Part shown: one piece after another, positions 1,521 to 28,125 of the stretch
How the letters are laid out: every line of letters begins with the position of its first letter
How positions within the stretch are numbered: the first letter of the stretch is position 1
Assembly (NCBI GenBank): GCA_016871535.1
Contig: VHCZ01000046.1
Span: forward strand, 1 to 32,229
Origin: Verrucomicrobiota bacterium
GTDB lineage: Bacteria; Verrucomicrobiota; Verrucomicrobiia; Limisphaerales; SIBE01
DNA: 32,229 nt
Reading direction: 5' to 3'
The notes under the pieces: model-generated
What the model was told of the DNA's origin: nothing
Databases searched by the model: none
What the model saw: only the letters and a program-made list of their open reading frames with translations
Program-made: the position numbers and the translations under genes

Positions 1521-1646
1521 GTCAATCAGAATAACTCTCTCGGACTGAGCTTTACTTCTGGCGAGTGCGCGGCGCCAGGTGTAACGTGGGCGCCAAGGAA
1601 AGCGGTTCGCGAATCGTGCGTGGGCAGGCGCGAGCAGTTGCCGAAG

Positions 1647-2300
1647 ATGTTAGACCGGAAACTCAAGAGTGCTGAAGCCGGGATGGAACTCCTGGGGGAG
1701 CTCCATCGCTTCGCGGAGCAATTGGGTTGCCCGCAAGAACTGGCCGCGCTGGGAACCATGCCCCTGCCACTGGAGATGGTGCGCGGAGACGGTTCGTTGT
1801 CGTTTCAAGGATTTCTCGAAACCTACTGCGCCCAAGTCCTCGTTCCGCACGAGTTGCCCGCGATTCACAAGGCTTACCTTCACGCCACGCGTTACGAAGT
1901 CCGAGAGTTGATCGAATCGGATTGGAAACTGAGCCAGGAGCCGAAGCTGCGGCGCTTTGCGGGAGTGAGCCAATGTCTGGGGACAAGCCAGCTCCAGAGA
2001 CTCAGGCCGCTGCGGGACCAACGCCTGGTGCGCCGCTACTGGGAAGCCGTGGAAAACGGCGAGGCGCACGGTTGGCACACGATCGTCTATGGCCTGGTCC
2101 TCGCGCTTTTCTCTCTGCCGCTGCGGCAGGGCCTGCTGAATTACGGACAACAAGTCATCCGCGGCTTCATCGACTCCGGCAGTTGCGCATTCAAGCTTTC
2201 CCCGGAGGAATCCGCCAGGCTTCACGCCAAGCTTTGCGCGCCGTTGCCACAAGCTATCGAACGGCTTCTCTGCGCCCAGGCGGTCGTGTTCGCAAGGTAG
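1647..2300 (+). CDS. UreF-like urease accessory family protein
   Basis: This mostly helical protein of about 217 residues fits the UreF pattern. It has an ATRYEVREL-type segment followed by a basic stretch, then the signature region of UreF's second half: AHGWHTIVYG, a hydrophobic run ending in LPLRQ, and a long helix containing NYGQQVIRGF. UreF normally acts with UreD and UreG to deliver nickel to urease. No urease or other accessory gene is in the window, so the role here is open. An alternative GTG start lies 27 bases upstream at 1620. ATG was preferred, though neither has a clear ribosome-binding site. The assignment rests on recalled pattern similarity only. Confidence 0.5.
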   Translation: MLDRKLKSAEAGMELLGELHRFAEQLGCPQELAALGTMPLPLEMVRGDGSLSFQGFLETYCAQVLVPHELPAIHKAYLHATRYEVRELIESDWKLSQEPKLRRFAGVSQCLGTSQLQRLRPLRDQRLVRRYWEAVENGEAHGWHTIVYGLVLALFSLPLRQGLLNYGQQVIRGFIDSGSCAFKLSPEESARLHAKLCAPLPQAIERLLCAQAVVFAR

Positions 2301-2594: not shown

Positions 2595-3797
2595 ATGACG
2601 GATTCCGGCGCGCATTCTCATCTTCCGCCCCTGGCCTCCTTTGACCATCAGCCGCGCACGCGCCTGATTTTTGGCGTGGGCAGTGTGGGGCGCGTCGGTG
2701 AATTGGCGCGCGAGTTTGGCGCGAAAAAAGTCTTGCTCGTCACCGATGCCGGGTTGGTCGCAGCCGGCCACGCCGGTCAGGTGCATCGCATTTTGGAGGC
2801 CGCGGGTTTGGCGGTTACCGTCTTCGACAAGGCCCTGGAAAACCCTACCACCCGGTGCGTCGATGAGTGCGCGGCACTGGCCAGGAAATCGGAGATCGAA
2901 TTGATCGTCGGGCTGGGCGGTGGCAGTTCGATGGACACAGCCAAAGGCTGCAATTTCATCCTCACTAACGGCGGAAGAATGCAAGACTACTGGGGTGTCG
3001 GCAAAGCGACCAAACCGATGCTCCCGTTGATCGCCATTCCGACGACCGCCGGGACGGGCAGCGAATGCCAGTCTTCCGCTCTGATTGCGGACGAGCATAC
3101 GCACCAGAAAATGGCGTGCCTGGATCCGAAGGCCACCGCGCGCGTAGCGATCCTCGATCCGGCGCTCACTGTTTCCCAGCCGTTGGCCGTGACCGCGCAC
3201 ACGGGGATCGACGCCATCGCCCATGCCGTGGAAACCACCGTGACGCGCAAGCGCAATCCACTTTCTTTGATGTATTCGCACGAAGCGTTCAAACTCACGG
3301 CCACGAGTCTGGATCGCGCGCTCACAACACCGGACGACCTTGAAGCCCGCGGCCGAATGCTGCTCGGCGCCGCCTACGCCGGGATGGCCATCGAGAATAG
3401 CATGCTGGGCGCCGCTCACGCTGCGGCCAATCCGTTGACCGCACACTACGACGTCGTGCACGGCGAGGCCGTCGGGCTCATGCTCCCGGCCGTCGTCCGA
3501 TTCAACGGACAGGATCCGGCAATTTGCCAGGCTTACGCTGAACTGGCTTCCGCGTCTGAAATTGCCTGCGTGAGCGACAACGTGAAACCGGCGTGGGAAG
3601 CGTTGGTCGCGCGGTTAGAATCGCTGCTCAACGCAGCCAAAATCGCGCGCTCACTCGCCGATTGCGGCGTCGAGCGTTCCATGATTAAGACGCTGGCCAA
3701 GGAAGCCTCGAAACAATGGACCGCCACTTTCAATCCGCGACCACTCACCGTGGACGATTTCGCCGCCCTCTACGAAGCGGCCTTTCGGCCGCGGTGA
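2595..3797 (+). CDS. Iron-containing (group III) alcohol dehydrogenase
   Basis: A full-length 400-residue member of the Fe-ADH family, which oxidises alcohols or reduces aldehydes with NAD(P) in the cytoplasm. The N-terminal nucleotide-binding domain carries the family GGGSSMD motif at 108-114 and the PTTAGTGSE motif at about 149-157. The C-terminal helical domain has the expected metal ligands: Asp206 and His210 in GIDAIAHAVE, His275 in LGAAHA, and His289 in HYDVVHGEAVG. The substrate cannot be predicted. The gene stands alone between the UreF-like gene and a convergent cysteine desulfurase. Confidence 0.92.
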   Translation: MTDSGAHSHLPPLASFDHQPRTRLIFGVGSVGRVGELAREFGAKKVLLVTDAGLVAAGHAGQVHRILEAAGLAVTVFDKALENPTTRCVDECAALARKSEIELIVGLGGGSSMDTAKGCNFILTNGGRMQDYWGVGKATKPMLPLIAIPTTAGTGSECQSSALIADEHTHQKMACLDPKATARVAILDPALTVSQPLAVTAHTGIDAIAHAVETTVTRKRNPLSLMYSHEAFKLTATSLDRALTTPDDLEARGRMLLGAAYAGMAIENSMLGAAHAAANPLTAHYDVVHGEAVGLMLPAVVRFNGQDPAICQAYAELASASEIACVSDNVKPAWEALVARLESLLNAAKIARSLADCGVERSMIKTLAKEASKQWTATFNPRPLTVDDFAALYEAAFRPR

Positions 3798-3823: not shown

Positions 3824-4975
3824 TCAATGGATTGTGCTTTGGATTCCGCGGTGAACTTTCACTAACGCCTCGAGCAACGCAGTCCATTCATCCTCCGCAG
3901 TCTCCCATCCACTGCTAAAGCGCAGCACGCGCCCGGCTTCGGCGGACGAATAGCCCATGGCCGCGATCACATGCGACGGTTCCTCTTTGCCGCTCGCGCA
4001 GGCGGAACCAGTCGAAACGGCAAAGCCCAATTTATCCAGCTTCACGACCCAGCGTTGCTGGCAATCCGCCTCCGGCATCAACGCGGAAACCGTGTTCCAG
4101 AGCCGCGCGGCATTCACGCCGACGATTTCCGATCCGGGCAGCGCCGCCAGCAACCGTTTCTCAAACGCCGCGCGCGCCTGCTCCATCGTCCATCTTCCGT
4201 CTTCCATCCTCGACTTCTTCAACGCCTCCTCGCGCACCTCCAGCGCCGCGATCATCGCCAGCACTCCCGCGACGTTCTCAGTCCCGGCCCGGCGTCCTTC
4301 CTCCTGCAGGCCGCCGCGCAGCAGCGGTTCGACGCGGCCTTTCGCGGGACACTTCAAAAAACCGACTCCTTTGGGTCCGCCGAATTTGTGCGCCGAACCG
4401 CTGACAAAATCGCATTCGCCCAGCCCGACCGCCGGTAGCTTGCCGATCCATTGCGTCGCGTCGCAAAAAAAGGGAACCTCCCGTTCACGGCAAAGCGCCA
4501 ATACTTCGCGCCACGGCTGGAGAACGCCCGTCTCATTATTCGCGGCCATCACCACGACCGCGCCAGGCGGTCGTTTGGCCAATTCATTTCGCAACCAATC
4601 CAAATCGACGACCCCGGAGCGCAGGACCGGAATGAGCCGGTGACGCCGAGGAAAATAGTGCTTCGTCGCTTCGAGCACGCACGGATGTTCGACCGCTGAA
4701 ATCCAAATCTCACTTTTTGCATCGATCGCGCGCGCGAAGTGATGCAGCGCCATGTTGTTCGACTCGGTCGCGCCCGAGGTCCAGACCAGATCAAGCGCAT
4801 CGCAGCCGAGGAAGCTCGCGAGTTTTTGGCGGGCTTCCGCCAGCGCCGCGTCCGCCCGGCTGCCGACGCGATGCGGACTGGACGGATTGCCAATGAATTT
4901 CTCGACAGCTTCCAGCCAGGCCTGCCGCGCCGCCGGGTGCATCGGCGAAGTGGCGTTGTGATCGAAGTAGACCAT
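3824..4975 (-). CDS. Cysteine desulfurase (NifS/IscS-like, PLP-dependent)
   Basis: This 383-residue class-V aminotransferase-fold enzyme removes sulfur from cysteine for Fe-S clusters and thiocofactors. Visible landmarks are the N-terminal YFDHNATSP, ATESNN at 70-74, His97 in the VEHP segment, DATQ at 172-175, the PLP lysine Lys197 in SAHKFGG, and the persulfide cysteine Cys326 in STGSACASGK. The GTEN segment (231-234) is also present. Residues 255-266 (RMEDGRWTME region) are encoded by heptad-repeat DNA and lengthen a surface helix relative to what I recall for the family. Fe-S proteins occur in the nearby plus-strand cluster, but this gene is not co-transcribed with them. Confidence 0.93.
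   Translation of the reverse strand: MVYFDHNATSPMHPAARQAWLEAVEKFIGNPSSPHRVGSRADAALAEARQKLASFLGCDALDLVWTSGATESNNMALHHFARAIDAKSEIWISAVEHPCVLEATKHYFPRRHRLIPVLRSGVVDLDWLRNELAKRPPGAVVVMAANNETGVLQPWREVLALCREREVPFFCDATQWIGKLPAVGLGECDFVSGSAHKFGGPKGVGFLKCPAKGRVEPLLRGGLQEEGRRAGTENVAGVLAMIAALEVREEALKKSRMEDGRWTMEQARAAFEKRLLAALPGSEIVGVNAARLWNTVSALMPEADCQQRWVVKLDKLGFAVSTGSACASGKEEPSHVIAAMGYSSAEAGRVLRFSSGWETAEDEWTALLEALVKVHRGIQSTIH
4180..4214. repeat. Heptad array 3, inside the cysteine desulfurase gene
   Basis: Five 7-bp units on the plus strand (GCTCCAT, CGTCCAT, CTTCCGT, CTTCCAT, CCTCGAC) read on the coding strand as ATGGAAG-type units. They encode part of a helix connecting two conserved regions, and the reading frame stays open. 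Confidence 0.8.
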
Positions 4976-5205
4976 GAGCGCAAATAGGAAAACGCCGGTG
5001 ACTCAACTATTCAATTCTGAACCGGAGAAAACTGAGCAAACATTTGCTCCTGTTCTGCCGTCTGAGTTGTCCCCGATGGCCACATTCAGAAGTCGGGCGC
5101 CGGGAATCCGTTCAAAGATAATGTGCCGCGCGAAATTCACCCAGCGCTGGCATCGGTCAAGCACGCTGCCGTCGGACGTGGCAATGTCTCGCAGCGACTC
5201 TGGCG

Positions 5206-5241
5206 GGCAAGTTGCCCGGCAGTACGGGCTGGTAGCCCGTT
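5206..5241. repeat. Tandem palindromes in a gene-free interval
   Basis: Two small perfect or near-perfect palindromes lie next to each other: GGGCAAGTTGCCC (5206-5218) and ACGGGCTGGTAGCCCGT (5225-5241). They sit in the interval 4976-5327, where ORFs exist on both strands but none has protein-like composition or a recognisable family. This looks like an intergenic palindromic repeat, not a regulator binding site. Confidence 0.6.
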
Positions 5242-5327
5242 CCACCCTTATCCTTCCGAGAGGCTGTGACGTATGACTTCGCTGGCGGCAGTTGACGCCT
5301 ATTGCAGCCAGACGGTAGGCTACGCGC

Positions 5328-5873
5328 ATGGGAACGCTGACGATTGAACTTCCGCCGCAGTCCGTGCAAACGGATTTCAATTCCCGCCGCTGGGCCGAGC
5401 TTCTGGCGGATGCGGAACTGGCCCGGTTCGAAGGCCGCATCGAAACCGATCGTCACGGCCACATCATCATGAGCCTGCCCCCTGCTCCAAGCCACGGCAG
5501 CTACCAAGCCGAAATCGGCCACCTTCTCCGAACACTCATGCCTCGTGGACGCGTTCTCACGGAGTGCCCCATCTCGACGGCCGACGGAGTCAAAGCGGCT
5601 GACGTAGCCTGGGCGTCACCGGAATGCCTGCGCGAGCTGGGTAACCGTGTCTGTTTCCCTCGATGTCCGGAAATCTGTGTCGAAGTGATCTCGCCGAGGA
5701 ATACAGAAGCGGAGACGCGGGAGAAGATGGCGCTGTATTTCGACGCGGGCGCTCTGGAAGTCTGGCTTTGTTCGGGCACTGGAAAAATGAGTTTTTGGTT
5801 AGCCGGCGCAAACCGTCCGAGGCCTGCCTCCAAGCTTTGCCCGCACTTTCCCAGGCAGGTCGAGCTCCGTTGA
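5328..5873 (+). CDS. Uma2-family (DUF820) putative restriction-like endonuclease
   Basis: A 181-residue protein with the compact PD-(D/E)XK layout of Uma2 proteins. It has an N-terminal ELLADAELARFEGRIE-like segment, Asp92 in AADVAWAS, Glu119 in CVEVISP, and Lys133 in AETREKMALY, followed by EVWLC. These proteins are abundant in cyanobacteria and Verrucomicrobia and are predicted DNases of unknown role. The gene starts the plus-strand run that continues with the GcvH-like gene 39 bases downstream. Whether it belongs functionally to that set is unknown. Confidence 0.85.
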   Translation: MGTLTIELPPQSVQTDFNSRRWAELLADAELARFEGRIETDRHGHIIMSLPPAPSHGSYQAEIGHLLRTLMPRGRVLTECPISTADGVKAADVAWASPECLRELGNRVCFPRCPEICVEVISPRNTEAETREKMALYFDAGALEVWLCSGTGKMSFWLAGANRPRPASKLCPHFPRQVELR

Positions 5874-5912
5874 ACGGCGCTGACGAGTTACGCCCTGAAA
5901 CCCGACCGGAGC

Positions 5913-6389
5913 ATGGGAGCGCCGCAATCGAAAACGCTTTTCTACAAACGCTCGCGTTTCGTCACGCATCTGCCCGTGGACTATCTTTATAGCCCCTCCC
6001 ATTCGTGGATCGCGCGGCACGATACGCCGGAGCTCTGGCGAGTCGGCTTGACGAAGTTCGCCACGCGCATGCTCGGCGAGATGGTCGATCACGGATTTGA
6101 AGTCGAGGCCGGCGCGCCCGTCCAACTCGGCCAGGTCGTCGGCTGGGTCGAAGGGTTCAAGGCGATCTCAGATATCTTTTGTGTTGCCGAGGGAAACTTC
6201 GGCGGCGCCAATCCCGTCCTGAAAGAGAAAATTACGCTGGTGAACAAAGACCCGTATGGCGCGGGCTGGTTGTATCTGGTAAAGGGGAAGCCGGATGAGA
6301 AAGGCGTGGATGTCCATGCTTATATGCGCATCCTCGACAAAACCATCGACAAAATCCTGGAACGGCAGAAAGGCGAAGAGATCAAGTGA
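5913..6389 (+). CDS. GcvH-like lipoyl carrier protein (not in a glycine cleavage operon)
   Basis: This 158-residue protein has the H-protein fold signature: HSWI near residue 31, VGLTKFATRMLGE at 44-56, and the lipoyl-attachment motif VEGFKAISD with Lys83. GWLY follows at 118-121. True GcvH carries aminomethyl groups between GcvP and GcvT, but neither of those genes is present. The usual ESVKA context is changed to EGFKA, and the C-terminus extends into a helix. The stop codon overlaps the GTG of the GTPase gene, indicating translational coupling. A carrier role in another redox or C1/sulfur pathway, as for the lipoate-binding proteins of sulfur-oxidising sHdr systems, is an inference from context. 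Confidence 0.88.
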   Translation: MGAPQSKTLFYKRSRFVTHLPVDYLYSPSHSWIARHDTPELWRVGLTKFATRMLGEMVDHGFEVEAGAPVQLGQVVGWVEGFKAISDIFCVAEGNFGGANPVLKEKITLVNKDPYGAGWLYLVKGKPDEKGVDVHAYMRILDKTIDKILERQKGEEIK

Positions 6390-7618
6390 AGACGACAGGC
6401 AGAGGGCGGAAGGCAGAAGGCGCTGGCGGGGCGAGCGTTGAGCGTCGAGCGTCGATCTCAGATCAATCGCCAATCGCCAATCGCCAATCCCAAATCCCCA
6501 AAGCGCGCTACATCATGATCGGCGGGTTCCTGGGCGCGGGCAAGACGACGTCGGTGGCGAAGCTGGCCGAACGCCTGACTCGGCAAGGTCTGCGCGTCGG
6601 GCTGATCACCAACGATCAGGGCAGCGAACTGGTCGATACAGCCATGCTGCGGTCGCGCGGTTTCGCCACGGAGGAAATTCCCGGCGGCTGTTTCTGCTGC
6701 CGGTTCAATTCGCTCGTGGACGCCGCGAACAAGCTGACGGCGGCCTCGCGTCCGGACGTTTTCATCGCGGAGCCTGTGGGCAGTTGCACGGACCTCGCGG
6801 CGACCGTGACGTATCCGCTGCGACGCATGTACGGCGACCAATTCACCATCGCGCCATTGAGCGTGCTGGTCGATCCGATCCGGGCCTCGCGGGTGTTCGG
6901 CCTCGAACGCGGCAGCCAGTTTTCCGAGAAGGTGCTTTACATTTACCGCAAGCAACTCGAGGAGGCGGACCTCATCGTGATCAACAAGTGCGAGTTGCTC
7001 GACGCGAGCCAGCGCCCGTTGTTGCGCGCGAAATTGGCCGAGGAATTTCCGCGCGCGGAGATCGTCGAGGTTTCGGCGCGGCGCGGCGATGGGCTTGACG
7101 CGTGGTTCGACCGGATCATCGCCACCGAACAGGGCGCGCGCGCGGTCATGGGAGTCGATTACGAGGTGTACGCGGAAGGCGAGGCTTTGCTCGGTTGGTT
7201 GAACGCCACCGTCCAGCTCGCGGCTCGCGAGGGGTTCATGGCCGACGCGGTGATGCGGGCACTGGCGAGTCAGATTCAATCCCACTTGCAGCAGCGGAAC
7301 GCCGAAATCGCGCATCTGAAAATGACCCTCAGCCCGGACGGCGGCCTGGGTGAAATCGCGGTAATCAATCTGGTGCGGAACGATGTAGTGCCGGAACTCT
7401 CGCAGACGCTCGACGAACCGGTCGAGAGCGGGCAACTCATTATCAATCTTCGCGCAGAAGCCGCGCCGGAGGTTTTGCGCGAAGCGGTGGCCAGCGGCCT
7501 CGAGTTGGTCTCGCGCGGCTTCCACGGTTTCCGCGCGACGATCGAGCATTTGGAGCACTTTCGCCCTGGCAAACCCACCCCAACCCACCGAATCACCGCC
7601 CTGGCGGGCTTCCCATGA
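6386..7618 (+). CDS. CobW/G3E-family GTPase (metallochaperone-like)
   Basis: The G3E GTPase core has the P-loop GFLGAGKTT at 47-55 (counting from the GTG start), the metal-binding GCFCC motif at 101-105, and NKCE at 200-203 for guanine recognition. The C-terminal half does not look like the standard CobW C-domain, and its role is unclear. Family members use GTP to load metals (Zn, Co, Ni) into client proteins. The first about 40 residues are encoded by a heptad array and are low in complexity. The only in-frame ATG (6515) falls inside the first core beta-strand, so translation probably starts at the coupled GTG or at another upstream codon. The stop codon lies in the flank of a palindromic element. 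Confidence 0.88.
   Translation: MKTTGRGRKAEGAGGASVERRASISDQSPIANRQSQIPKARYIMIGGFLGAGKTTSVAKLAERLTRQGLRVGLITNDQGSELVDTAMLRSRGFATEEIPGGCFCCRFNSLVDAANKLTAASRPDVFIAEPVGSCTDLAATVTYPLRRMYGDQFTIAPLSVLVDPIRASRVFGLERGSQFSEKVLYIYRKQLEEADLIVINKCELLDASQRPLLRAKLAEEFPRAEIVEVSARRGDGLDAWFDRIIATEQGARAVMGVDYEVYAEGEALLGWLNATVQLAAREGFMADAVMRALASQIQSHLQQRNAEIAHLKMTLSPDGGLGEIAVINLVRNDVVPELSQTLDEPVESGQLIINLRAEAAPEVLREAVASGLELVSRGFHGFRATIEHLEHFRPGKPTPTHRITALAGFP
6399..6503. repeat. Heptad array 4, encoding the N-terminus of the GTPase
   Basis: Fifteen consecutive 7-bp units can be laid out without a break: GCAGAGG, GCGGAAG, GCAGAAG and so on, through AGCGTTG and AGCGTCG twice, to GCCAATC three times, CCAAATC and CCCAAAG. 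The array ends just before the codons for the P-loop strand. It encodes the peptide around IANRQSQIP. Confidence 0.88.
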
Positions 7619-7745
7619 GCCGTCTCTTCGGACCGTGGCCTTCAGGCCGCTTCAACGCCGAACTCCAGAGCAGGGCCGGAAGCAGCCTGAAGGCTGCGGT
7701 CCGCGCAGTGCTCGGTTCATGGGCAGTGGGCATGGTCCTGAGACC
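7608..7745 (-). repeat. 75-bp double-hairpin element (copy 1) with conserved flanks
   Basis: The core, 7629-7703, starts CGGACCG and ends CGGTCCG. It contains two short hairpins built around GGCCTTCAGGCC and AGCCTGAAGGCT. Its reverse complement matches 15973-16047: the outer 26 and 31 bases are identical except for one base, while the central 18 bases differ. Flanks are shared too: CATGGGAAGCC (minus strand, 7608-7618) overlaps the stop codon of the GTPase gene. The other flank, around TTCATGGGCAGTGGGCATGG (7715-7734), resembles a sequence near 23514. Two ORFs of about 60 codons here are translations of the repeat and not genes. Confidence 0.85.
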
Positions 7746-7782
7746 CAGGGAGCTTTCCATGAAACCTCCCCGCAAATTCAGG

Positions 7783-7819
7783 GCGACCACAAATTGAAGA
7801 GGAACAAATTCGTGGTCGC
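7783..7819. repeat. Inverted repeat (long stem-loop)
   Basis: GCGACCACAAATT (7783-7795) faces AATTCGTGGTCGC (7807-7819) with one unpaired base, giving a 12-13 bp stem with an 11-base loop. It lies in the 307-bp gap (7619-7925) between the GTPase and the HdrA-N-like gene, which otherwise contains only repeat sequence. It could be an attenuator or terminator splitting the cluster, but no T-tract follows. Confidence 0.6.
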
Positions 7820-7925
7820 TCCGAATTCGTGGGGGATAACCTCTCGTTCATGGGCCGAGTGCATGGCGCGCAACCGGGCCGGAAAATCGCTGGCGCTCCC
7901 GCTGATCCGCGATAATCTTTGAGCC

Positions 7926-8348
7926 ATGTCAGATCAACCGCGCATCTTGTATTGCCACTGCGCTTACGCCCAGGTCGTGCCGAAAGAGGTCAAGGAAGCG
8001 GTCTTGCGCAAGCTGTGCGAATCAGGCGTGGCGTTCGATGCGGTCGCTGACCTTTGCGAAATGTCCGCGCGGCAGGACGCGGCGCTGAAGCGGCTGGCCG
8101 ATGGCGGCGCGGTCAAGATCGCGGCTTGCTATCCGCGCGCGGTGAAGTGGCTGTTCGCCGCAGCCAAAGCACCGTTGAGCCTCCAGTCCACCGAAGTTTG
8201 CAACATGCGTGTGGAGTCCGCCGAACGGGTTTGCGCTTCGTTGTTCGATTCCGAAGTTAAAGCCAATCTGCCCGCCGGAAAAGCGACCCAGCCTTCGGCC
8301 GACGAGTTGCCAAGGCCCGAAGCCAACCCCCAAATGACGAATGCTTGA
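7926..8348 (+). CDS. Small cysteine-rich protein resembling the HdrA N-terminal domain
   Basis: This 140-residue protein begins with ILYCHCAYAQVVP, then has Cys31, Cys44 in ADLCEMS, and Cys68 in KIAACYPRA, with Cys92 and Cys103 further on. The order 'CHC near the N-terminus, a C-M-S segment, a short helix, then a strand ending in AAC-PR' recalls the N-terminal domain of heterodisulfide reductase subunit A. That is recalled similarity, not a search result. Known HdrA proteins continue into an FAD domain, and this one does not. It sits directly before a 2[4Fe-4S] ferredoxin, fitting an electron-transfer partner. The last residues (around QMTNA) are encoded by the start of a heptad array, suggesting that the original C-terminus was altered. 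Confidence 0.6.
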   Translation: MSDQPRILYCHCAYAQVVPKEVKEAVLRKLCESGVAFDAVADLCEMSARQDAALKRLADGGAVKIAACYPRAVKWLFAAAKAPLSLQSTEVCNMRVESAERVCASLFDSEVKANLPAGKATQPSADELPRPEANPQMTNA

Positions 8349-8506
8349 GTCGAATGACGAATGACGAAATCCCAATGACGAAAGAATGTCGAATGACGAA
8401 ATCCGAATTGCTCCTCAGCGGCACTGTGGCTGCCCTTTGGGGCATCCGACATTCGGATTTCTTTTGTCCTTCGTCCTTCGTCATTAGACATTCCCCAACC
8501 ACCTGA
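8330..8506. repeat. Heptad array 5, inverted two-arm, over a gene end
   Basis: The left arm (about 8333-8405) is built from units such as GAATGAC and GAAATCC. The right arm (about 8449-8499) has units such as TCGTCCT, TCGTCAT and TAGACAT, and is roughly the reverse complement of the left. About 45 bp of unrelated sequence separates them. The left arm includes the stop codon of the preceding gene, and the right arm ends just before the ferredoxin start codon. Confidence 0.85.
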
Positions 8507-8509
8507 ATT

Positions 8510-9382
8510 ATGTCGCTCAAGGACCAGACGACCCTCCGCATTGTCCTTTACGAAGGCCGCGGCGCCCAACCGCTCGAAGCCGCCCACCGATTCACCACCC
8601 TGGCCGGGTTGTTGGAGAAGGGATTTGCGGTTACGCGTGTCGGGCGTGAGGGTCGCGTGGCTCCCGCCGACGGCACCTCGCTTTTGGTCCTGGGCCGATT
8701 TGACGACGGCCAGCCGCCACGAATGGAAGACGCCGCCGGTCACGTGGACCTTCGGTTTCAGGACATCACGGACCTGGACTTGAATCGGCTCGGCGAGTCG
8801 GTCGAAACGGCCCGCGCCAGCGCCAACGCCGCGAAGCACGGGGAATGGAAGCCGTGGTTCCCGGTCATCGACTACGACCGCTGCACGAATTGCATGCAAT
8901 GCCTGAGCTTTTGTTTGTTCGGCGTCTATGGCGTGGACGAGCAGCAGCGCATTCAGGTTGACAACAATGACAACTGCAAGACGAACTGTCCGGCGTGTTC
9001 GCGCGTCTGTCCCGAAGCCGCGATCATGTTCCCGAAATACAAATCCGGCCCAATCAACGGCGACGTGGTGAGCGACGCGGACCTTCAGCGTGAAAAGATG
9101 AAGGTCGATATCAGTTCGCTGCTCGGCGGCGACATTTACTCGATGCTGCGCGAGCGCAGCGAAAAGGCGAAGTCGCGTTTCTCGAAAGAGCGCGATTCCA
9201 ACAAAGCGCTGCAAGAGCGGCAGAAGTGCCTGGTCAAACTCGCGCAAGCGGGCGACATCCCGGCCGAAGTGCTGATGAGTTTGCCGTCCCCCGAAGAAAT
9301 CGCGCGCCGGGCGGAGGAAGCGAAGGCCAAGGCGCAGGCGGCGTTGCAAAAGCAGACTCAAACGGCGACGCATCAGCCATGA
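8510..9382 (+). CDS. 2[4Fe-4S] ferredoxin-domain protein with novel N- and C-terminal regions
   Basis: The 290-residue protein has a ferredoxin module at about 119-175. Its two cysteine sets are Cys125, 128, 131 and 135 (CxxCxxCxxxC) and Cys156, 160, 163 and 167 (CxxxCxxCxxxC), expected to bind two [4Fe-4S] clusters. Residues 1-110 form an alpha/beta region I do not recognise. Residues 195-290 are a charged, Ala/Glu/Lys-rich helical, possibly coiled-coil tail. No signal peptide is seen, so it should be cytoplasmic. The gene overlaps the next small ORF by ATGA. Its neighbours suggest that it supplies electrons within the GcvH-like/radical SAM cluster, which is inference. Confidence 0.85.
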   Translation: MSLKDQTTLRIVLYEGRGAQPLEAAHRFTTLAGLLEKGFAVTRVGREGRVAPADGTSLLVLGRFDDGQPPRMEDAAGHVDLRFQDITDLDLNRLGESVETARASANAAKHGEWKPWFPVIDYDRCTNCMQCLSFCLFGVYGVDEQQRIQVDNNDNCKTNCPACSRVCPEAAIMFPKYKSGPINGDVVSDADLQREKMKVDISSLLGGDIYSMLRERSEKAKSRFSKERDSNKALQERQKCLVKLAQAGDIPAEVLMSLPSPEEIARRAEEAKAKAQAALQKQTQTATHQP

Positions 9383-9432
9383 GCAATGCCGAACTGAAAC
9401 GTTACGTGGATAAGCGCATGACAACGCTATGA
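9379..9432 (+). CDS. 17-residue micro-ORF coupled on both sides
   Basis: The ORF encodes MSNAELKRYVDKRMTTL. Its ATG overlaps the ferredoxin stop codon (ATGA), and its own stop overlaps the next ATG in the same 4-base manner. This double coupling is unusual. It may be a real leader-like peptide that couples translation, or the surviving N-terminus of a larger protein cut off when the Uma2 gene arrived. The peptide is helical and charged. No function is assigned. Confidence 0.4.
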   Translation: MSNAELKRYVDKRMTTL

Positions 9433-10064
9433 GTGCGGTGGCCCGGCACACAGGTTGGATTTCCCCGGAGGAATACCTCGTGGGTGAGCACACATCCGAA
9501 GTCCGCCACGAATACGTGAACGGGCATGTTTATGCGATGGCCGGTGCGAGCGACGACCACAATCGCATTGTGGGCAACATCCATGGCGAGCTTCGTGAGC
9601 GGCTGCGTGGGAAGCGCTGCGAGCCATTCATGGCCGACATGAAAGTTAAGATCCCTCCAACTTTCGAAGATATCTATTATTACCCCGACGTGATCGTTGT
9701 TTGCGATCCGGCGGATGATGCGAAGTATTACCGGGAACGGCCGAGCGTCATCCTCGAAGTTCTTTCGCCGGAGTCCGAAAGGACTGACCGCCGGGAAAAG
9801 GCGATCGTATATCGTCTCATCCCTGGGCTCGAGGTCTATGTCCTCGTCGAGCAGGACCGTATGGCCGCGACTGTCTTACGGAGGGCTGAACCCGGCTGGC
9901 AAAGTGAAATTCTGGCCGGCGCAGGCGCCATCCTGAAACTTGAAAACATTGGGGTGTCTATTCCACTGGAGCGGCTTTACGAGCGGACCGCGGTTGTCGG
10001 CGCCAACCGTTCCACATCGGCGCGCACTGGAGAAACTCTTGATCAATCCCTATCAAAAGCCTGA
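9429..10064 (+). CDS. Uma2-family (DUF820) putative endonuclease, second copy
   Basis: A 211-residue Uma2 protein only distantly related to the one at 5328. It shows SPEEYL at 12-17, Glu29 in HEYVNG, Asp87 in YYPDVIVVC, Glu110 in LEVLSPESE, and Lys124 in TDRREK, the PD-(D/E)XK catalytic set, followed by VYVLVEQD. The family fold normally ends near the IPLERLYERTAV segment. The last about 22 residues look like added sequence. The gene sits between the micro-ORF and the radical SAM gene and may be an insertion into an older operon. Confidence 0.85.
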   Translation: MSAVARHTGWISPEEYLVGEHTSEVRHEYVNGHVYAMAGASDDHNRIVGNIHGELRERLRGKRCEPFMADMKVKIPPTFEDIYYYPDVIVVCDPADDAKYYRERPSVILEVLSPESERTDRREKAIVYRLIPGLEVYVLVEQDRMAATVLRRAEPGWQSEILAGAGAILKLENIGVSIPLERLYERTAVVGANRSTSARTGETLDQSLSKA

Positions 10065-10203
10065 TTACCAGGAGCACCATGATTCGGGCCGCGCTCTGGG
10101 CGTCGTGTTGACCGGGCCGTGGGCCATCACATTTTGGCTCGATCATTTCGTAAGGGAGATTCGCGTTGTAAGCGTAGAAAAGGCCGATCGCTAACAGTGG
10201 AAC

Positions 10204-11496
10204 ATGCTTCCCTCCCTCGTCCATCGCACCCTCCGCACCGCTGACAAACGGTGCATCGCGAAGTTCCTCTGGAACTTCGGCGTAAAAGGCTTGCTGTCGG
10301 TCGAAAAATTCAAGCGCCGGATCAAGCGCGGCGAATACTTCCCGCCCTTCCTTTACCTCTCGATCATCAACTCCTGCAATCTCCGTTGCCAGGGTTGCTG
10401 GGTGGACGTCGAGGAGAAGGATGCCATCGATCTCGACACGTTGAACCGCACGATCACGGACGCCAAGCGGCACGGGAATTCGTTCTTCGGGATTCTCGGC
10501 GGCGAACCGTTCATGCACCCGCAGCTTCTCGAAATGCTCGCCGCGCATCCGGATTGCTATTTCCAACTGTTCACGAACGGCCAGTTCATTACCGAGAAGA
10601 TCGCGGATCGTTTGCGCGAGCTTGGGAATGCGACGCCGCTGGTGAGCATCGAAGGCCGCGAAATCGTCAGCGACGAACGGCGCGGGCGAAGCGGCGTCTT
10701 CAGCAAAACCATGCGCGGGCTGGAGAATTGCCTGCGCGCGCGGCTCCTCACAGGCGTCGCGACCAGCGTGTGCCAGACGAACATCGACGAGTTGCTCACG
10801 GAGGAATGGCTTCGCGAACTGATCCGCCGGGGCGTCCATTACGTCTGGTACCACTCGTACCGTCCGGTCGGCCCGAAACCGAATTTCCAACTCGCCCTGC
10901 GTCCGGACCAGCTCGTGCGTACCCGCCGCTTCGTCGTCGAGATGCGCGCGAAAGTGCCCATCGCGATTATCGACGCTTACTACGACGACCGCGGGCAGGC
11001 GCTGTGTCCGATGGCGACCGGCATCAGCCACCACATCAGTCCGCGCGGCGATATCGAGCCGTGTCCCATTCTGCAGTTCGCGGTGGAAAATATCCGCGAC
11101 GAGCGCGGCTTGTTCGAGACCATGCGCCAATCTTCTTTCTTGCGCGACTTTCGAGAGCTTCCGGCCAAAGCCACGCGCGGCTGCGTCGTCCTGGAACGGC
11201 CCGACCTGGTCAGGGAACTCGTTCTCAAGCACGGCGCCCGCGACACGACGGCGCGCGGCACAGCCATGGCGGAATTGGAAGCCATGACGCCGCGGTTCAG
11301 CCAATGGTTGCCGGGCGAAGAAGTGCCGGAAAAGCATTGGATGTACAAACTGGCGAAGCGATTTTGGTTCAACGATTTCGACGCTTACGCTCGGGCAGAG
11401 CACGATGCGACTGCCTCGGCCAAGGCTAAAGAGTTGATGGAATTTGACGATGAACAAGATGTGGGACGCGTGATGGGGACCTTGGACAAAGGTTAG
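10204..11496 (+). CDS. Radical SAM protein with SPASM-like C-terminal cysteines
   Basis: The radical SAM cluster motif CNLRCQGC (Cys58, Cys62, Cys65) sits in the first strand-helix of the barrel, followed by GGEPF at 99-103 for SAM binding. A C-terminal region contains Cys268 in ALCPMA, Cys287 in EPCPIL and Cys327, which may hold an additional Fe-S cluster as in SPASM/twitch enzymes. The N-terminal about 45 residues are basic and amphipathic, and a tail of about 90 residues follows Cys327. The substrate is unknown. As the last gene of the plus-strand cluster it could act on, or with, the lipoyl-like carrier. It begins about 140 bases after the second Uma2 gene, so it may have its own promoter. 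Confidence 0.88.
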   Translation: MLPSLVHRTLRTADKRCIAKFLWNFGVKGLLSVEKFKRRIKRGEYFPPFLYLSIINSCNLRCQGCWVDVEEKDAIDLDTLNRTITDAKRHGNSFFGILGGEPFMHPQLLEMLAAHPDCYFQLFTNGQFITEKIADRLRELGNATPLVSIEGREIVSDERRGRSGVFSKTMRGLENCLRARLLTGVATSVCQTNIDELLTEEWLRELIRRGVHYVWYHSYRPVGPKPNFQLALRPDQLVRTRRFVVEMRAKVPIAIIDAYYDDRGQALCPMATGISHHISPRGDIEPCPILQFAVENIRDERGLFETMRQSSFLRDFRELPAKATRGCVVLERPDLVRELVLKHGARDTTARGTAMAELEAMTPRFSQWLPGEEVPEKHWMYKLAKRFWFNDFDAYARAEHDATASAKAKELMEFDDEQDVGRVMGTLDKG

Positions 11497-11671: not shown

Positions 11672-11797
11672 TTGGTCGCAGAAAGCAATGCTGAAGTAAC
11701 CCCTCTTGAATCATCCGCGCCACCCGGCGGCGAGTTTTGGTTTGCACGGGCCTGTCGTGCTCGTTATCCTCCGGCTCATCCTGAAGCCTGCAAACCT

Positions 11798-14700
11798 ATG
11801 TGTATCCAAATGCAATCCATTGGCGGCCGCGTTCGGCGTCCGATTGACAAACTCTCACTAAACAGAGCGCTCCGGGCTTGGTTTCTCGCCCTTGCGGCTT
11901 TCGTCGCGGCCTGTGGGATGCCGCACGCTTCCGCGCAAATCCCGGCTGTTGTGTTCACGGACGATTTCTCTTCGAACACGATCGATCCGGCCAAGTACCA
12001 GCCGGACGCGCCGTTCTTTGAAGGCGGCAAGGGCGATATTCACGCCGAGGCCGGCAACGGCGTCTTTAAATTCGTCGGGACGACCAGCCAGCAATGGTGG
12101 TCCGGCGGCACCCTTCGCATCACCCAGACGTTCGAGGCCACGGAGCAGACTCCGGTCAAGATCACCATCGACCGCGTCGCGGAGGCCGGCGTGGGCACGG
12201 CGTCGCGCAGCGCGCTGTGGATTCTGAACGAAGAGAAAGACAAGTACGTGCTCTTCGCCGATGTCCGGGGCGAAGGCGGCTGGCGCTTCAACCGCAAGAT
12301 CGGCGAGACCGGCGACGTGCCCACGGGCAGCGGAACGGACATTGCAGCTTTCAATGGCGGCACTTTCGACGACGGCGGATTGCACCGGATGCAAATGGTG
12401 GCCAACGGCAGCACGGTGAAACTGATCCTGGACGGCATCCAAGGGCCGGAGGTGAAATTCCCGTTTTCCAAAGTCATATTCCAATTCGGGAGTTACGCCC
12501 GGGCGAACAACGATACGGCTGATACGACCTGGGATAATTTGAAAATCGAGACCAATTTGAAGACCTCCGTCGTTTTCTCGGACGACTTTTCATCCAACAC
12601 GCTGCCGGCCAGCAAATATGAGCCGGATGCTCCGTTCTTTGAGGGGGGCAAAGGCGACATTCACGCCGAAGCGGGCAACGGCGTCTTGAAATTCGTCGGA
12701 ACGACCAGCCAGCAATGGTGGTCCGGCGGCACGGTGCGCGTCGTGCCGGCGTTCACGGCCACTCAAGAGACGCCGGTGTCCATCTCGATCGATCGCGTCG
12801 CCGAAGCCGGCGTCGGCACCGCCTCCCGCAGCGCCCTGTGGATTCTGAATGAGGCGAAGGACAAATACGTGCTCTTCGCCGATGTCCGCGGCGAAGGCGG
12901 CTGGCGTTTCAATCGCAAGATCGGGGAGACCGGCGACGTGCCCACCGGCAGCGGCACCGACATCGCCGCCTTCAACGGGGGCTCGTTCGACAACGGCCAG
13001 TTGCACCGCATGCAAATAATCGCGGACGGCAAGACCGTGAAACTGCTCCTGGATGGTATCCAGGGCGCGGAAGTGAAGTTCCCATTCTCCAAGGTGATCT
13101 TCGAAATCGGAAGCTACGCCCGAGCCAACAACGACACGGCGGATACGACGTGGGACAACTTGAGAATCGAGACCGTGGTCCGGAAAACCAGCGTCGTCTT
13201 CGCAGACGACTTTGCCGCGAATACCATCGACCCCGCCAAATACCAGCCCGACGCTCCGTTTTTCGAAGGCGGCAAAGGGGACATCCACGCCGAAGCCGGG
13301 AATGGCGTGTTGAAATTCGTCGGGACCACCAGTCAGCAGTGGTGGTCGGGTGGAACGCTAAGGATCGTGCCGACCTTTGCGCCGTCCGAGGGAGAAACGA
13401 TCACGCTGTCCATCGATCGGGTGGCCGAAGCCGGCGTCGGCACCGCCTCCCGCAGCGCGTTGTGGATACTCAATGAGGCGAAGGACAAATACGTCCTCTT
13501 CGCCGATGTGCGGGGCGAGGGCGGCTGGCGTTTCAATCGGAAGATCGGCGAGACCGGCGACGTGCCCACGGGCAGCGGCACGGACATCGCCGCCTTCAAC
13601 GGAGCGGCCTTTGATGATGGAGGATTGCACCGCATGAGCATGATCGCGGACGGCAAGACGGTGAAACTCCTTCTGGACGGCATCCAGGGCACGGAAGTTA
13701 AGTTTCCTTTCTCGCCGGTTGTCTTCGAGTTCGGGAGTTACGCGCGAGCCAACAATGACACAGCCGACACCACTTGGGACAATCTAAGAATCGAAACGGC
13801 CGGGGGAACGACTTTCTCGCCGACCGCGATGAGCGTGCGTGTTGGACAACTCAGTCCGCCGGTGACTTTGCGCATTCCGCAGGGGCTGAATTCGCAGGCT
13901 CCGGTTCAGGTTCGCGTCGTCAGCAGCGACGCCAATCTCGCGGTCCCCGACGGCGGAACCGGGGCGAGTCTGAACGTAACGTTCCCAGCCGGAGGAGCAA
14001 ACACGGCCACCTTCCGCATCCGCGGCGCGGGTTTGGGAACCGTTCAGTTTGCCGCGGAAGGCGACCTTCCGGGCGCCAACCGGCTGGCTGTGGCGGTCAT
14101 CTCGGGGCCGGGCGTTGTGCTCGAAGAATCGTTCGCCGGAGCGACGATCGACACGGCGAAATGGCAAATCTCCAATCGAGCGTTCGAGGTCGGCACGGGT
14201 ACCTACACCGTCACCCAGACCGGCGGCCAGCTTAACATCACCGGGGCGGGCGACTCCGATTTCTGGTCGGGCGCTTCGTTGAAGACGGCCAAGAGCTACG
14301 TCGCCACGAAAGACATCAACCTCGCCGTGGAAGTGGACCGCGTTTCCAACGAGCAAGTGGGCACCGCCGGGCGGACCGGCGTATTCATCACCAACGGCGA
14401 TCGAAGCCGGTTCGTGTTCTTCGCGCACAACCTCGGCGAGAACGGCTGGCAAGTGAACGTGAATCCCGGAAACCCCACCGGCGGCGGCAGCAACCTGGCG
14501 GCCTTCAATGATCTCGATCTCGATCCGGGCCGGCACAAGATGAAGCTCGTGGCGGACGGTTCGATGGTCGAAGTGTTTCTGAATGGCGTTTCCGGCGGTC
14601 GCTTCCCGTTTGAGGTCACTTCGGACATTTACGTGGAATTCGGAGCGTATGCCCGCGCCACGGGCGATTTGATCACAGGCAAGTTTGACAACGCCAGAAT

Positions 14701-24272: not shown

Positions 24273-26156
24273 GTGATCGCGGGAGTGAAACGAACTGAGT
24301 TTCGGCGACGTCTCACGGCCGCTTTGACCCAAGCGCGCCGGGAATTGCTCGGCGCCCGTGCACCCGGCGGCCATTGGGTCGGGGAACTTTCCAGCAGTGC
24401 CCTTTCGACTGCCACCGCAGTCTGCGCCCTTGCCACCGTTGAAAAACATTCCGCACTCCGCACTCCGCACTCCGCACTCCTGATCGAGCGCGGACTGGAG
24501 TGGCTCGCCCAACACCAGAACTCCGACGGCGGCTGGGGCGACACGACCATCAGTGTTAGCAACATCAGCACGACGGCATTGTGCTGGGCGGCGTTCGGGA
24601 TCGTGCAGGGGAGCGACGCAAAGTTCCGAAGCGTCGTTGCGCGCGCGGAAAACTGGCTGGCTGAAAGGGCTGGAGGGATCGATCCTGAACACCTTGCGCC
24701 GGCCATCATCCGGCGCTACGGAAAGGATCGCACTTTCTCCGTTCCGATCCTCCTGACGTGCGCGCTGGGCGGACGACTGGGGCCGATGGCCGGGGCGTGG
24801 CGCCGGATTCTGCCGCTGCCCTTTGAACTGGCGGCTTGCCCGCATCAATGGTTCGCGGCGCTGCGGCTGCCCGTGGTCAGCTATGCGTTGCCGGCGTTGA
24901 TCGCGATTGGCCAGGCGCGGCATCATCACTTGCCTTCGAGAAACCCTCTCGCGCGCTTTGTCCGGGCTCTGACGCGGAGCCGGACGCTCGCCGTTCTTCA
25001 GAGCATTCAACCTTCGAGCGGCGGATTTCTGGAGGCCACGCCGCTGACGAGCTTCGTCGTCATGAGCCTCGCCTGCGCCGGGAATGTGGCCCATCCGGTC
25101 ACAAGACACGGCCTCGAATTTCTCGAGAAATCGCCGCGTCCGGACGGAAGCTGGCCCATCGACACGAATCTGGCGACGTGGGTCACCACGCTCGCGCTCA
25201 ATGCGCTCGGGCCGCGGCCAGCGATTGATTCGGGAGTGAGCGCGCTGGCTTTGGAACCCAACGATCTCCGGGCCATCCGAGAATGGCTTCTCGCGCAGCA
25301 ATACCGCGAGGAACATCCCTACACGCACGCCGCGCCGGGCGGCTGGGCCTGGACGGATTTGCCGGGAGGCGTTCCGGATGCCGACGACACAGCCGGAGCA
25401 TTGCTCGCGTTGCACAGTCTGGGCGAGATCGGTGACTCGACACGCGCCGCGGCGCTGGCGGGGATCCATTGGCTGTTGAACCTCCAGAATCGCGACGGAG
25501 GGATTCCCACGTTCTGCCGGGGCTGGGGCGCGCTGCCGTTCGACCGCAGCAGCCCGGATTTGACCGCGCACGGCTTGCGCGCCTGGGCGGCGTGGCGCGC
25601 GGACGTCCCATCAAACGTGCGAACGCGGCTCGATCAGGCCACCGTTCGAGCGGTGGAATACTTGCGGCAAACCCAGCGCGAAGATGGCTCGTGGGTTCCG
25701 CTCTGGTTCGGAAATCAATTCGCCCCGGACGACCAGAACCCGACCTATGGAACCGCGCGCGTCGTGCTCGCACTGGAAAAACTCGCGGCGCTCGGAATCA
25801 AATCAGGCGAGGGACCGCGGTCGCGGGGAATCGAGTGGTTGGTGCGCGCGCAGAATCCGGACGGCGCCTGGGGCGGCTTCAAGGGCGGTCCGGGTTCCGT
25901 CGAAGAGACCGCGCTCGCGCTGGAGGCCCTGGCAAGCACAACCAAGAACGGCGCTGGCCAAGAAATGGGAGAAGTCCGGTCTGCGATCACGCAGGGCACG
26001 ACCTGGCTGGTGGAACAAGTGGAGAATGGAACCTGGAAGAATCCATCGCCGATCGGTTTCTACTTTGCCAGGCTTTGGTACCACGAGCGGCTCTACCCGA
26101 TGGTTTTCACGGTCGGCGCTTTGAACGCCGCGGAACGGTCCTGTCGCGAGGGTTGA
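24273..26156 (+). CDS. Squalene-hopene cyclase family triterpene cyclase
   Basis: This 627-residue protein of the alpha/alpha-barrel cyclase family has the catalytic acid motif DADD at 369-372 (in VPDADDTAGA). It carries several QW repeats: QNSDGGWGD at 82-90, PDGSWP at 290-295, QNRDGG at 405-410, QREDGSW at 468-474 and QNPDGAWGG at 527-535. It should cyclise squalene to hopene or a related triterpene at the membrane. Residues about 58-70 (HSALRTPHSALL) are encoded by a heptad array and interrupt the first helical repeat. Start is GTG at 24273, with an in-frame GTG at 24285 as an alternative. No other hopanoid gene is adjacent, but ispH lies about 740 bases downstream on the same strand. Confidence 0.92.
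   Translation: MIAGVKRTEFRRRLTAALTQARRELLGARAPGGHWVGELSSSALSTATAVCALATVEKHSALRTPHSALLIERGLEWLAQHQNSDGGWGDTTISVSNISTTALCWAAFGIVQGSDAKFRSVVARAENWLAERAGGIDPEHLAPAIIRRYGKDRTFSVPILLTCALGGRLGPMAGAWRRILPLPFELAACPHQWFAALRLPVVSYALPALIAIGQARHHHLPSRNPLARFVRALTRSRTLAVLQSIQPSSGGFLEATPLTSFVVMSLACAGNVAHPVTRHGLEFLEKSPRPDGSWPIDTNLATWVTTLALNALGPRPAIDSGVSALALEPNDLRAIREWLLAQQYREEHPYTHAAPGGWAWTDLPGGVPDADDTAGALLALHSLGEIGDSTRAAALAGIHWLLNLQNRDGGIPTFCRGWGALPFDRSSPDLTAHGLRAWAAWRADVPSNVRTRLDQATVRAVEYLRQTQREDGSWVPLWFGNQFAPDDQNPTYGTARVVLALEKLAALGIKSGEGPRSRGIEWLVRAQNPDGAWGGFKGGPGSVEETALALEALASTTKNGAGQEMGEVRSAITQGTTWLVEQVENGTWKNPSPIGFYFARLWYHERLYPMVFTVGALNAAERSCREG
24447..24481. repeat. Heptad array 7, inside the squalene-hopene cyclase gene
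   Basis: Five 7-bp units: CATTCCG, CACTCCG three times, CACTCCT. A short inverse-complement segment follows at about 24488-24501 (CGGACTGGAGTG). The array stays in frame and adds a short Ser/Ala/Leu/His/Pro-rich loop before the first conserved QW-type motif. Confidence 0.82.
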
Positions 26157-26898: not shown

Positions 26899-28125
26899 AT
26901 GTCAACCCTAGCGCCGAGTGCGCCGCGAAAGATCAATCTCCGCCGGCCCGATGTCATGGCCGCGGTCCAGGCTCAGGTGCTGTCGCATTACCGAAGCGAA
27001 TTGATCGACCAAATTCGGGCGAAAGGCCTGGTCGTGTCCGCGGAAGGGCGGCTCACGGTCAAGCTGGCCAAGGAGTTCGGGTTTTGCTACGGCGTCGAGC
27101 GCGCGATTGACCTCGCGTACGCGGCGCGGAAGGTCTTTCCCGATCAGCCCATCTACATCCTCGGCGAGATCATTCACAACCCGGAAGTCAACGACCAGAT
27201 CCGGGCCATGGACATCAAGTTCCTTTCCGGCAAGGAAAGGAACGCCAACCTCGACGACTTGAAGCAAGGCGACGTGGTGATCATTCCCGCGTTCGGCGCC
27301 GAGACTTCGACGATGGAAAAACTGGAAGCGAAGGGTTGCCTCTTTGTCGATACGACTTGCGGGGACGTGATGAGCGTCTGGAAACGCGTCCGCCAGTACG
27401 CGAACGACTCGGTCACGAGCATCATCCACGGCAAAGCCTGGCACGAGGAAACGAAGGCCACGAGTTCCCGCGCCACGGCCAGCGGCAAGGGGCATTACCT
27501 GGTCGTCTTCACGCTGGCCGAGACGGACTACGTCTGTCACTACATCCTGACCGGCGGCAACAAAGCGGAATTCCTCGAGAAGTTCAAAGGCGCGTACTCG
27601 CCCGGCTTCGATCCGGACGTTCATCTCCAGGCCATCGGCGTGGCCAACCAAACGACGATGCTGCGCGGCGAAACCGAAGAAGTGCAGCGCCGGCTCAAGG
27701 CGGCCATGGAGAAAAAATACGGCGCGGTGGAACTGGACAAACATTTCCGGTTCTTCGACACGATCTGCGGCGCGACGCAAGACCGCCAGGATGCGCTGGA
27801 GAAATTGCTGGCCGAGCCGCTGGACCTTTTGCTCGTCATCGGCGGCTACAATTCGTCGAACACGTCGCATTTGGCGGAGATGGGCGAAGCGAAGCTGCCG
27901 ACTTTTTTCATCAAGAACGCCTCGAAGATGATCTCGGACGGTTTGATCGTGCACTTCGACCAGCACACGCACGCGGAAATCGAAACCAAAGCCTGGATGC
28001 CGCCGGGCCAAATCACGGTGGGCGTAACAGCCGGCGCGTCGTGTCCGAACAATTTGATCGAGGACGTGATCCGGCGGCTGTTTGAGCTGCGCGGCGTGGC
28101 GGTGCAGAATTTGTTGGCGAATTAG
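26899..28125 (+). CDS. 4-hydroxy-3-methylbut-2-enyl diphosphate reductase (IspH/LytB), long form
   Basis: IspH performs the last step of the MEP pathway, reducing HMBPP to IPP and DMAPP with a [4Fe-4S] cluster. The three cluster ligands are visible: Cys63 in FGFCYGVERA, Cys154 in DTTCGDV, and Cys290 in DTICGATQDRQ. Other conserved points are GEIIHNP at 89-95, SNTSHL at 320-325 and VTAGASCPN at 376-384. At 408 residues it is longer than the roughly 316-residue E. coli enzyme, with an N-terminal extension of about 50 residues and internal insertions like those of cyanobacterial and plant types. The product feeds squalene and hopanoid synthesis by the upstream cyclase. hicB follows after 9 bases. 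Confidence 0.95.
   Translation: MSTLAPSAPRKINLRRPDVMAAVQAQVLSHYRSELIDQIRAKGLVVSAEGRLTVKLAKEFGFCYGVERAIDLAYAARKVFPDQPIYILGEIIHNPEVNDQIRAMDIKFLSGKERNANLDDLKQGDVVIIPAFGAETSTMEKLEAKGCLFVDTTCGDVMSVWKRVRQYANDSVTSIIHGKAWHEETKATSSRATASGKGHYLVVFTLAETDYVCHYILTGGNKAEFLEKFKGAYSPGFDPDVHLQAIGVANQTTMLRGETEEVQRRLKAAMEKKYGAVELDKHFRFFDTICGATQDRQDALEKLLAEPLDLLLVIGGYNSSNTSHLAEMGEAKLPTFFIKNASKMISDGLIVHFDQHTHAEIETKAWMPPGQITVGVTAGASCPNNLIEDVIRRLFELRGVAVQNLLAN

Follow-up and report, generated by a model that had tools for sequence, protein, structure and literature searches.

A radical SAM, ferredoxin and lipoyl-carrier gene block of a Verrucomicrobiota bacterium: probably part of a conserved gene set for terpenoid biosynthesis

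The gene block and its conservation

The DNA analysed here (hereafter the window) is contig VHCZ01000046.1 of a Verrucomicrobiota bacterium (assembly GCA_016871535.1), 32,229 nt long and identical with the whole of contig C46 in a draft genome of 6.67 Mb. It carries, on the + strand, genes for a GcvH-like lipoyl-carrier protein, a G3E GTPase, a small protein resembling the N-terminal domain of HdrA (HdrA-N-like), a ferredoxin (Fd) and a radical S-adenosylmethionine enzyme (rSAM). An earlier note, made from the sequence alone, had proposed that these genes form a pathway of their own. All five were recovered at the positions given there (Table 1), with Pfam support for the GcvH-like protein, the G3E GTPase, Fd and rSAM. 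We consider it likely that they are one arm of a conserved, apparently undescribed gene set for terpenoid biosynthesis. They make up only its redox/carrier arm rather than the whole pathway, the invariant core being a DUF116-polyprenyl diphosphate synthase fusion (DUF116-PPS), a small alpha-toroid protein and a class II cyclase similar to squalene-hopene cyclase (SHC). The set is described nowhere in the literature searched, whose coverage leaves out most subscription journals, and a survey of COG0523 proteins mentions neither GcvH nor polyprenyl genes.

Conservation was assessed in 80 named loci, the best of more than 569 relatives found by a genome-wide scan with the rSAM alignment, and gene co-occurrence in 241 Verrucomicrobiota genomes. 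Because only these best 80 relatives were kept, the distribution outside Verrucomicrobiota is under-sampled. The usual gene order is cysteine desulfurase (divergent), GcvH, G3E, HdrA-N, Fd, rSAM, DUF116-PPS, toroid and SHC-like cyclase. The operon genes are on the same strand and tightly packed, with median gaps of -16 to +42 nt in the named loci (approximate values, derived from alignment envelopes). Clear examples of the operon are found in loci L206, L221, L230 and L254 and in the complete planctomycete chromosome CP050848 (L275). L259, from the cultured Brevifollis (Prosthecobacter) gellanilyticus NBRC 108608, holds rSAM, HdrA-N and Fd at a single locus. Locus L170, which had entered one alignment in the wrong strand or frame, was left out of account, as was L171. 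The named loci contain HdrA-N with Fd in 50 cases, the downstream synthase in 45, GcvH in 32 and G3E in 30. The earlier note had suggested a search for co-occurrence in both Verrucomicrobiota and Planctomycetota; the former is covered by the 241 genomes, and the occurrence in the latter is that one complete genome.

Strong rSAM matches were present in 41 of the 241 genomes (~17%, about a sixth), with one further weak match, DUF116 within a long frame in 45 and the cyclase in 44, whereas close G3E orthologues (among 18 G3E matches) and strong GcvH-like matches were each restricted to 11 genomes. The rSAM gene co-occurs with DUF116-PPS in 41/41 genomes and with the cyclase in 40/41; the fusion itself was confirmed by alignment in 26 loci and 38 named loci, not in every genome. 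The GcvH-like and close-G3E sets coincide exactly, in 11 genomes that all fall within the 41 rSAM genomes, also where the genes are scattered. Fisher tests gave p values of 1e-9 to 1e-47 for the gene pairs, which are descriptive since the test treats genomes as independent and these are related. Stronger evidence is that family f8 and the genome of the window retain the full set despite scattered genes. More distant G3E homologues of family f20 lie ~19 kb from rSAM on a common contig. A chance neighbourhood is ruled out by this co-occurrence, dispersed genes included, and the five families do constitute a conserved functional neighbourhood, as had been supposed.

The DUF116-polyprenyl synthase, the toroid protein and the cyclase

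The DUF116 part of DUF116-PPS has seven invariant cysteines; in the AlphaFold model of the fusion it is predicted with low confidence. The synthase part matches prenyl synthases of the PDB both by sequence and by fold, and carries the first (FARM) and second DDxxD motifs of trans-polyprenyl diphosphate synthases as DDIED and DDLxD, with D317, D318, D321, D464 and D465 invariant and D468 nearly so. By the usual chain-length rules, residues ahead of the first aspartate motif relate to the length of the prenyl product. The Ala five residues before this motif and the residue eight before it, mostly Phe, suggest a predicted product of about C25–C35. Standalone DUF116 genes elsewhere in the phylum adjoin genes that, read from sequence, are apparently IspH (in L108, the DUF116 gene being at 506–1953) and a CrtI-like desaturase (in L098 and L119), a hint that DUF116 may have an isoprenoid role in general.

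In the cyclase, D369-A370-D371-D372 is invariant and corresponds to the DxDD protonation motif; its nearest structures are SHC, matched at 2e-40. The small alpha-toroid protein (PF00432) lacks DxDD. Squalene/phytoene synthase (PF00494) is absent from 30 of the 41 rSAM carriers and present in 11, including the window's own genome, and the class to which the window belongs has PF00494 proteins in addition. With no such protein but a prenyl synthase in the operon, the cyclase of those 30 carriers probably uses a linear prenyl diphosphate.

The radical SAM enzyme and its putative electron donors

Alignment of 19 divergent orthologues showed the rSAM motif CxxxCxxC and three C-terminal cysteines (C268, C287 and C327) to be invariant. 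The protein had been called rSAM/SPASM-like; the first part of this description is supported by PF04055, whereas a full SPASM domain, with its seven-cysteine C-terminal motif, is not present, and the three cysteines suggest a twitch-like auxiliary site. The nearest PDB relatives are SkfB and BlsE, followed more weakly by the lipid enzyme GDGT-MAS (7tol). GDGT-MAS/Tes-type enzymes likewise have an rSAM core plus an auxiliary cluster and act on isoprenoid lipids, but the match to 7tol (31 bits) is confined to the rSAM core, and an isoprenoid substrate is here a prediction.

For the HdrA-N-like protein, a Pfam search gave no match, and a sequence-profile search of the PDB returned no relevant match and no HdrA relative. 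Its AlphaFold model is a confident Rossmann-like fold (pLDDT 90.6) with an HdrA subunit as the top structural match (VIA-align); HdrA chains occupy ranks 1, 3, 5, 8 and 9 among the structural neighbours, with Z scores of only 5.5–6.4, which are weak. C10, C12, D42, C44, C68 and R71 are invariant phylum-wide, so that the motif formerly read as CHC is actually CxC. The resulting CxC...C...AC pattern agrees with that of the HdrA N-terminal domain. On the weak, consistent HdrA fold signal of the model and the CxC...C...ACxPR cysteines, the best reading is a putative HdrA-N-like Fe-S domain, and the earlier comparison with HdrA-N can stand in this form. In HdrA itself, the cluster of the N-terminal domain is held by cysteines of that domain and one from a partner chain (PMC9012536), so that a complete Fe-S site is not proven from the small protein alone. 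The gene was found in 30 of the 241 genomes, always beside or fused to Fd and usually near the rSAM gene too; in most deep lineages HdrA-N and Fd are fused.

The GcvH-like carrier, the G3E GTPase and the cysteine desulfurase

K83 and E80 of the GcvH-like protein are invariant, in an EGFKA/EGLKA context, among 30 aligned in-frame orthologues, which settles the question of Lys83 retention raised in the earlier note and agrees with the lipoyl-lysine ExxKA pattern of glycine cleavage H proteins. Even so, the protein is distinct from this genome's glycine-cleavage H protein: its score of 69.1 bits falls well short of the cut-off of 115.9 for the GcvH equivalog TIGR00527, and a canonical GcvH is encoded separately on contig C325 (155 bits to PF01597). 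The GcvH-like and G3E open reading frames (ORFs) overlap by 4 nt (GTGA) in the window. This had been taken as stop/start coupling, but the GTG start prepends ~38 non-conserved aa to the G3E protein, whose conserved sequence begins at about 6500; a genuine 4-nt overlap does exist in the relative L206 (GcvH 5560–6033, G3E ATG at 6030).

The G3E protein conserves a GTPase P-loop (GGFLGAGKTT) and GGCFCCR, with CxCC invariant in 20 orthologues, and together with PF02492 these features place it among COG0523/G3E metallochaperones. The NifS-type cysteine desulfurase (TIGR03402, 278 bits against an equivalog cut-off of 531) adjoins GcvH in 21 named loci, divergently in 20, and its catalytic loop GSAC[SA]SG is kept in 20 of the 21. 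The GcvH-like protein and G3E, plus the desulfurase, are best regarded as a lineage-specific accessory to the pathway.

A proposed pathway and the alternatives

The catalytic motifs are intact in the synthase, the cyclase, rSAM, the GcvH-like protein (the lipoyl lysine) and G3E (CxCC), and we infer that all these genes serve a single common product, probably a ring-closed isoprenoid lipid (a membrane lipid or a redox lipid) made with the help of radical chemistry. The DUF116-fused synthase would make a medium-length prenyl diphosphate (about C25–C35), the SHC-like class II enzyme, assisted by the small toroid protein, would cyclise this linear chain, and rSAM would perform a radical modification after cyclisation, with low-potential electrons probably reaching it from the HdrA-N/Fd pair or fusion. 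Some lineages, including this genome, add the GcvH-like lipoyl carrier, the G3E metallochaperone and the cysteine desulfurase, which probably provide a single step or enzyme with a metal and with sulfur or a group borne on the carrier. What the data demonstrate is the linkage of the genes; the product, the order of reactions and the chemistry are inferred. Several observations weigh against this scheme. In four genomes DUF116-PPS and the cyclase are present with rSAM undetected, some of these assemblies being fragmented. The core can do without GcvH and G3E, whose close orthologues occur in 11 of the 41 pathway genomes. In addition, the operons of deep lineages also encode membrane ferredoxins, an ABC/FtsX exporter and beta-propellers, with a NuoEFG-like protein in one family; what the set produces may accordingly be part of a respiratory system and not simply a lipid.

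Known systems comparable to the proposed pathway include two built around SHC-family cyclases. Ordinary hopanoid biosynthesis (HpnCDE, SHC and HpnH) also has a class II cyclase of this family followed by an rSAM step on a terpenoid, and the rSAM described here shows weak similarity to HpnH; at 40.8 bits, however, this is far below the HpnH cut-off of 225, the operon carries a dedicated polyprenyl synthase as well as extra redox and carrier genes, and the lack of PF00494 squalene supply in 30 of the 41 carriers led us to reject the hopanoid pathway for most of them. It is very improbable overall. Another parallel is the sesquarterpene (sporulene/baciterpenol) pathway of Bacillus, consisting of HepST, YtpB and SqhC, where a polyprenyl diphosphate synthase likewise supplies an SHC-family cyclase without squalene; rSAM, HdrA-N/Fd, DUF116, the lipoyl carrier and G3E are found only in the present set, and no YtpB-like gene was recognised here, although no search was aimed at one. 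Another possibility, to which we give a minor share of our belief, is that the gene set makes a quinone-like membrane redox lipid. It would serve a neighbouring chain of electron-transfer proteins, made up of NapG/NapH-like ferredoxins and beta-propellers anchored in the membrane and joined in one family by a NuoEFG-like NADH module. NapG/NapH-like and propeller genes share the neighbourhood in several deep lineages, together with FtsX-type exporter proteins, and the family with the NADH module also has an ABC ATPase there, which gives weight to a redox lipid or an exported one as an alternative. The NapG-like N-terminus is twin-arginine-like, and hydrophobic anchors are present in the propeller, NapH-like and c12 proteins. 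On the other hand, the flanks in the window's class are free of redox genes though the biosynthetic core persists, and no gene for ring-forming aromatic chemistry was seen.

Two further explanations start from the carrier arm. If NifS passed sulfane sulfur to the lipoyl arm and thence through rSAM to the isoprenoid, a thio-terpenoid would result. This is doubtful: NifS with an intact catalytic loop stands beside GcvH in 20 named loci, and sulfur oxidation by sHdr depends on lipoyl proteins as partners (PMC6067878), but 30 of the 41 core carriers are without GcvH and close G3E, NifS may serve Fe-S assembly only, and a sulfur-relay protein was not identified. An sHdr-like sulfur-oxidation or lipoate-assembly module, of which the gene set had reminded the earlier note, is hardly credible. 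As in sHdr-LbpA systems with sLpl(AB)/LipS1/LipS2 (PMC6067878, PMC10332631), a GcvH-like gene is linked to genes for an Hdr-type Fe-S protein and rSAM; as the note itself had said, though, the genes are not the same set. Only the HdrA N-terminal domain is represented, the partners are isoprenoid genes, with which the strict linkage lies, and there is no dedicated lipoate ligase. No HdrB- or HdrC-like genes were found among the cluster neighbours scanned with Pfam; CCG matches in the window's own genome come from different contigs, and their frames (428, 474 and 1152 aa) are closer in size to GlpC/GlcF. PF03099 proteins occur in all 11 genomes bearing the GcvH-like gene, but none of the listed matches is beside the cluster. 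The operon yielded a single recognisable rSAM gene, LipS1 and LipS2 not having been searched by model. Furthermore, LbpA has two strictly conserved cysteines besides the lipoyl lysine, some archaeal LbpAs excepted (PMC6067878), whereas the 30 GcvH-like orthologues have no invariant or near-invariant cysteine and keep the lysine alone. Judged against the two papers cited, we reject sHdr and lipoate assembly, given which genes adjoin the cluster and the missing LbpA cysteines.

The proposed terpenoid gene set is neither an sHdr sulfur-oxidation system nor a standard hopanoid one. More tentatively, rSAM with its HdrA-N/Fd donor may modify a cyclised non-squalene polyprenyl chain to which the lipoyl carrier delivers sulfur or another group, yielding a redox lipid for extracytoplasmic electron-transfer proteins; this fuller version is possible, but we would not expect it to hold in all its parts.

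Taken as an orphan gene set found in ~17% of the sampled Verrucomicrobiota, plus a planctomycete, and tied to isoprenoid chemistry, these genes provide a testable context for orphan families such as DUF116, the free-standing HdrA-N domain, the GcvH paralogue and a COG0523 subgroup. In these bacteria, genes of the SHC-like type may be taken for hopanoid genes; since most sampled carriers are without a recognisable squalene synthase, inferences from SHC in lipid-biomarker work and genome mining would need correction. Were the lipoyl carrier to act on an isoprenoid, this would be a new use of lipoate.

Extended operons in two relatives may be mentioned here. In L049 (5973–9403, +), a membrane-anchored propeller, a Tat-like NapG-type ferredoxin and a NapH-like protein are encoded upstream of the biosynthetic operon and are possible users of its product. 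In L307, which belongs to family f20, the extended operon includes a gene (4669–7620, +) for a fused NuoE-NuoF-NuoG-like NADH-oxidising protein.

Organization of the window and local disruption

Table 1. Genes of the block and its neighbours in the window
Feature	Position	Strand	Support
Fe-dependent alcohol dehydrogenase, peripheral neighbour	2595..3797	+	PF00465/PF25137
NifS/IscS-type cysteine desulfurase, divergent from operon	3824..4975	-	PF00266; TIGR03402 NifS 278 bits
Uma2-family gene, putative restriction-endonuclease fold	5328-5873	+	
GcvH-like lipoyl-carrier protein, putative lipoyl-Lys83	5913..6389	+	PF01597 66.6 bits
G3E (COG0523/CobW-type) GTPase, GGCFCC metal motif	6386..7618	+	PF02492 87 bits
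HdrA-N-terminal-domain-like protein, 4 conserved Cys (CxC..DxC..ACxPR)	7926..8348	+	alignments, AlphaFold
Ferredoxin of the 2x[4Fe-4S] type, putative electron donor	8510..9382	+	Fer4 families; PorD/KorD-like 43 bits
Uma2-family gene, putative restriction-endonuclease fold	9429-10064	+	
rSAM enzyme with auxiliary-cluster cysteines	10204..11496	+	PF04055 54.8 bits
SHC-like class II terpene cyclase, DADD motif	24273..26156	+	PF13243/PF13249
IspH/LytB, isoprenoid precursor enzyme	26899..28125	+	PF02401 234 bits

The operon is broken in this genome. The DUF116-PPS and toroid genes are on contig C45, and the cyclase gene is displaced ~13 kb downstream of rSAM, followed by the IspH gene. IspH is a possible source of precursors for the pathway; its linkage is not conserved, none of the 80 named loci having it beside the operon. 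Two Uma2-family genes lie around and inside the block, and since the Fd–rSAM gap in relatives has a median of 4 nt, the second of them is probably a local insertion. The alcohol dehydrogenase gene has an equal position in L206 and was found in only 2 of the 80 named loci, one of these matches being weak.

Directly 3' of the rSAM gene, in the slot occupied by DUF116-PPS in relatives, a secreted-looking protein of 1399 aa with three nearly identical repeats of ~200 aa is encoded (11672–15871, +). Near the left end of the window, an ORF at 1620–2300 (+) is UreF-like (PF01730, 36 bits), with no further urease gene recognised among the window ORFs scanned. The ORF at 212–1315 (+) encodes a membrane-fusion protein of the HlyD type. 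Its final ~60 residues resemble the C-terminal end of a LolD/MacB-type ABC ATPase, and the ORF looks like two genes joined by a deletion or an assembly join.

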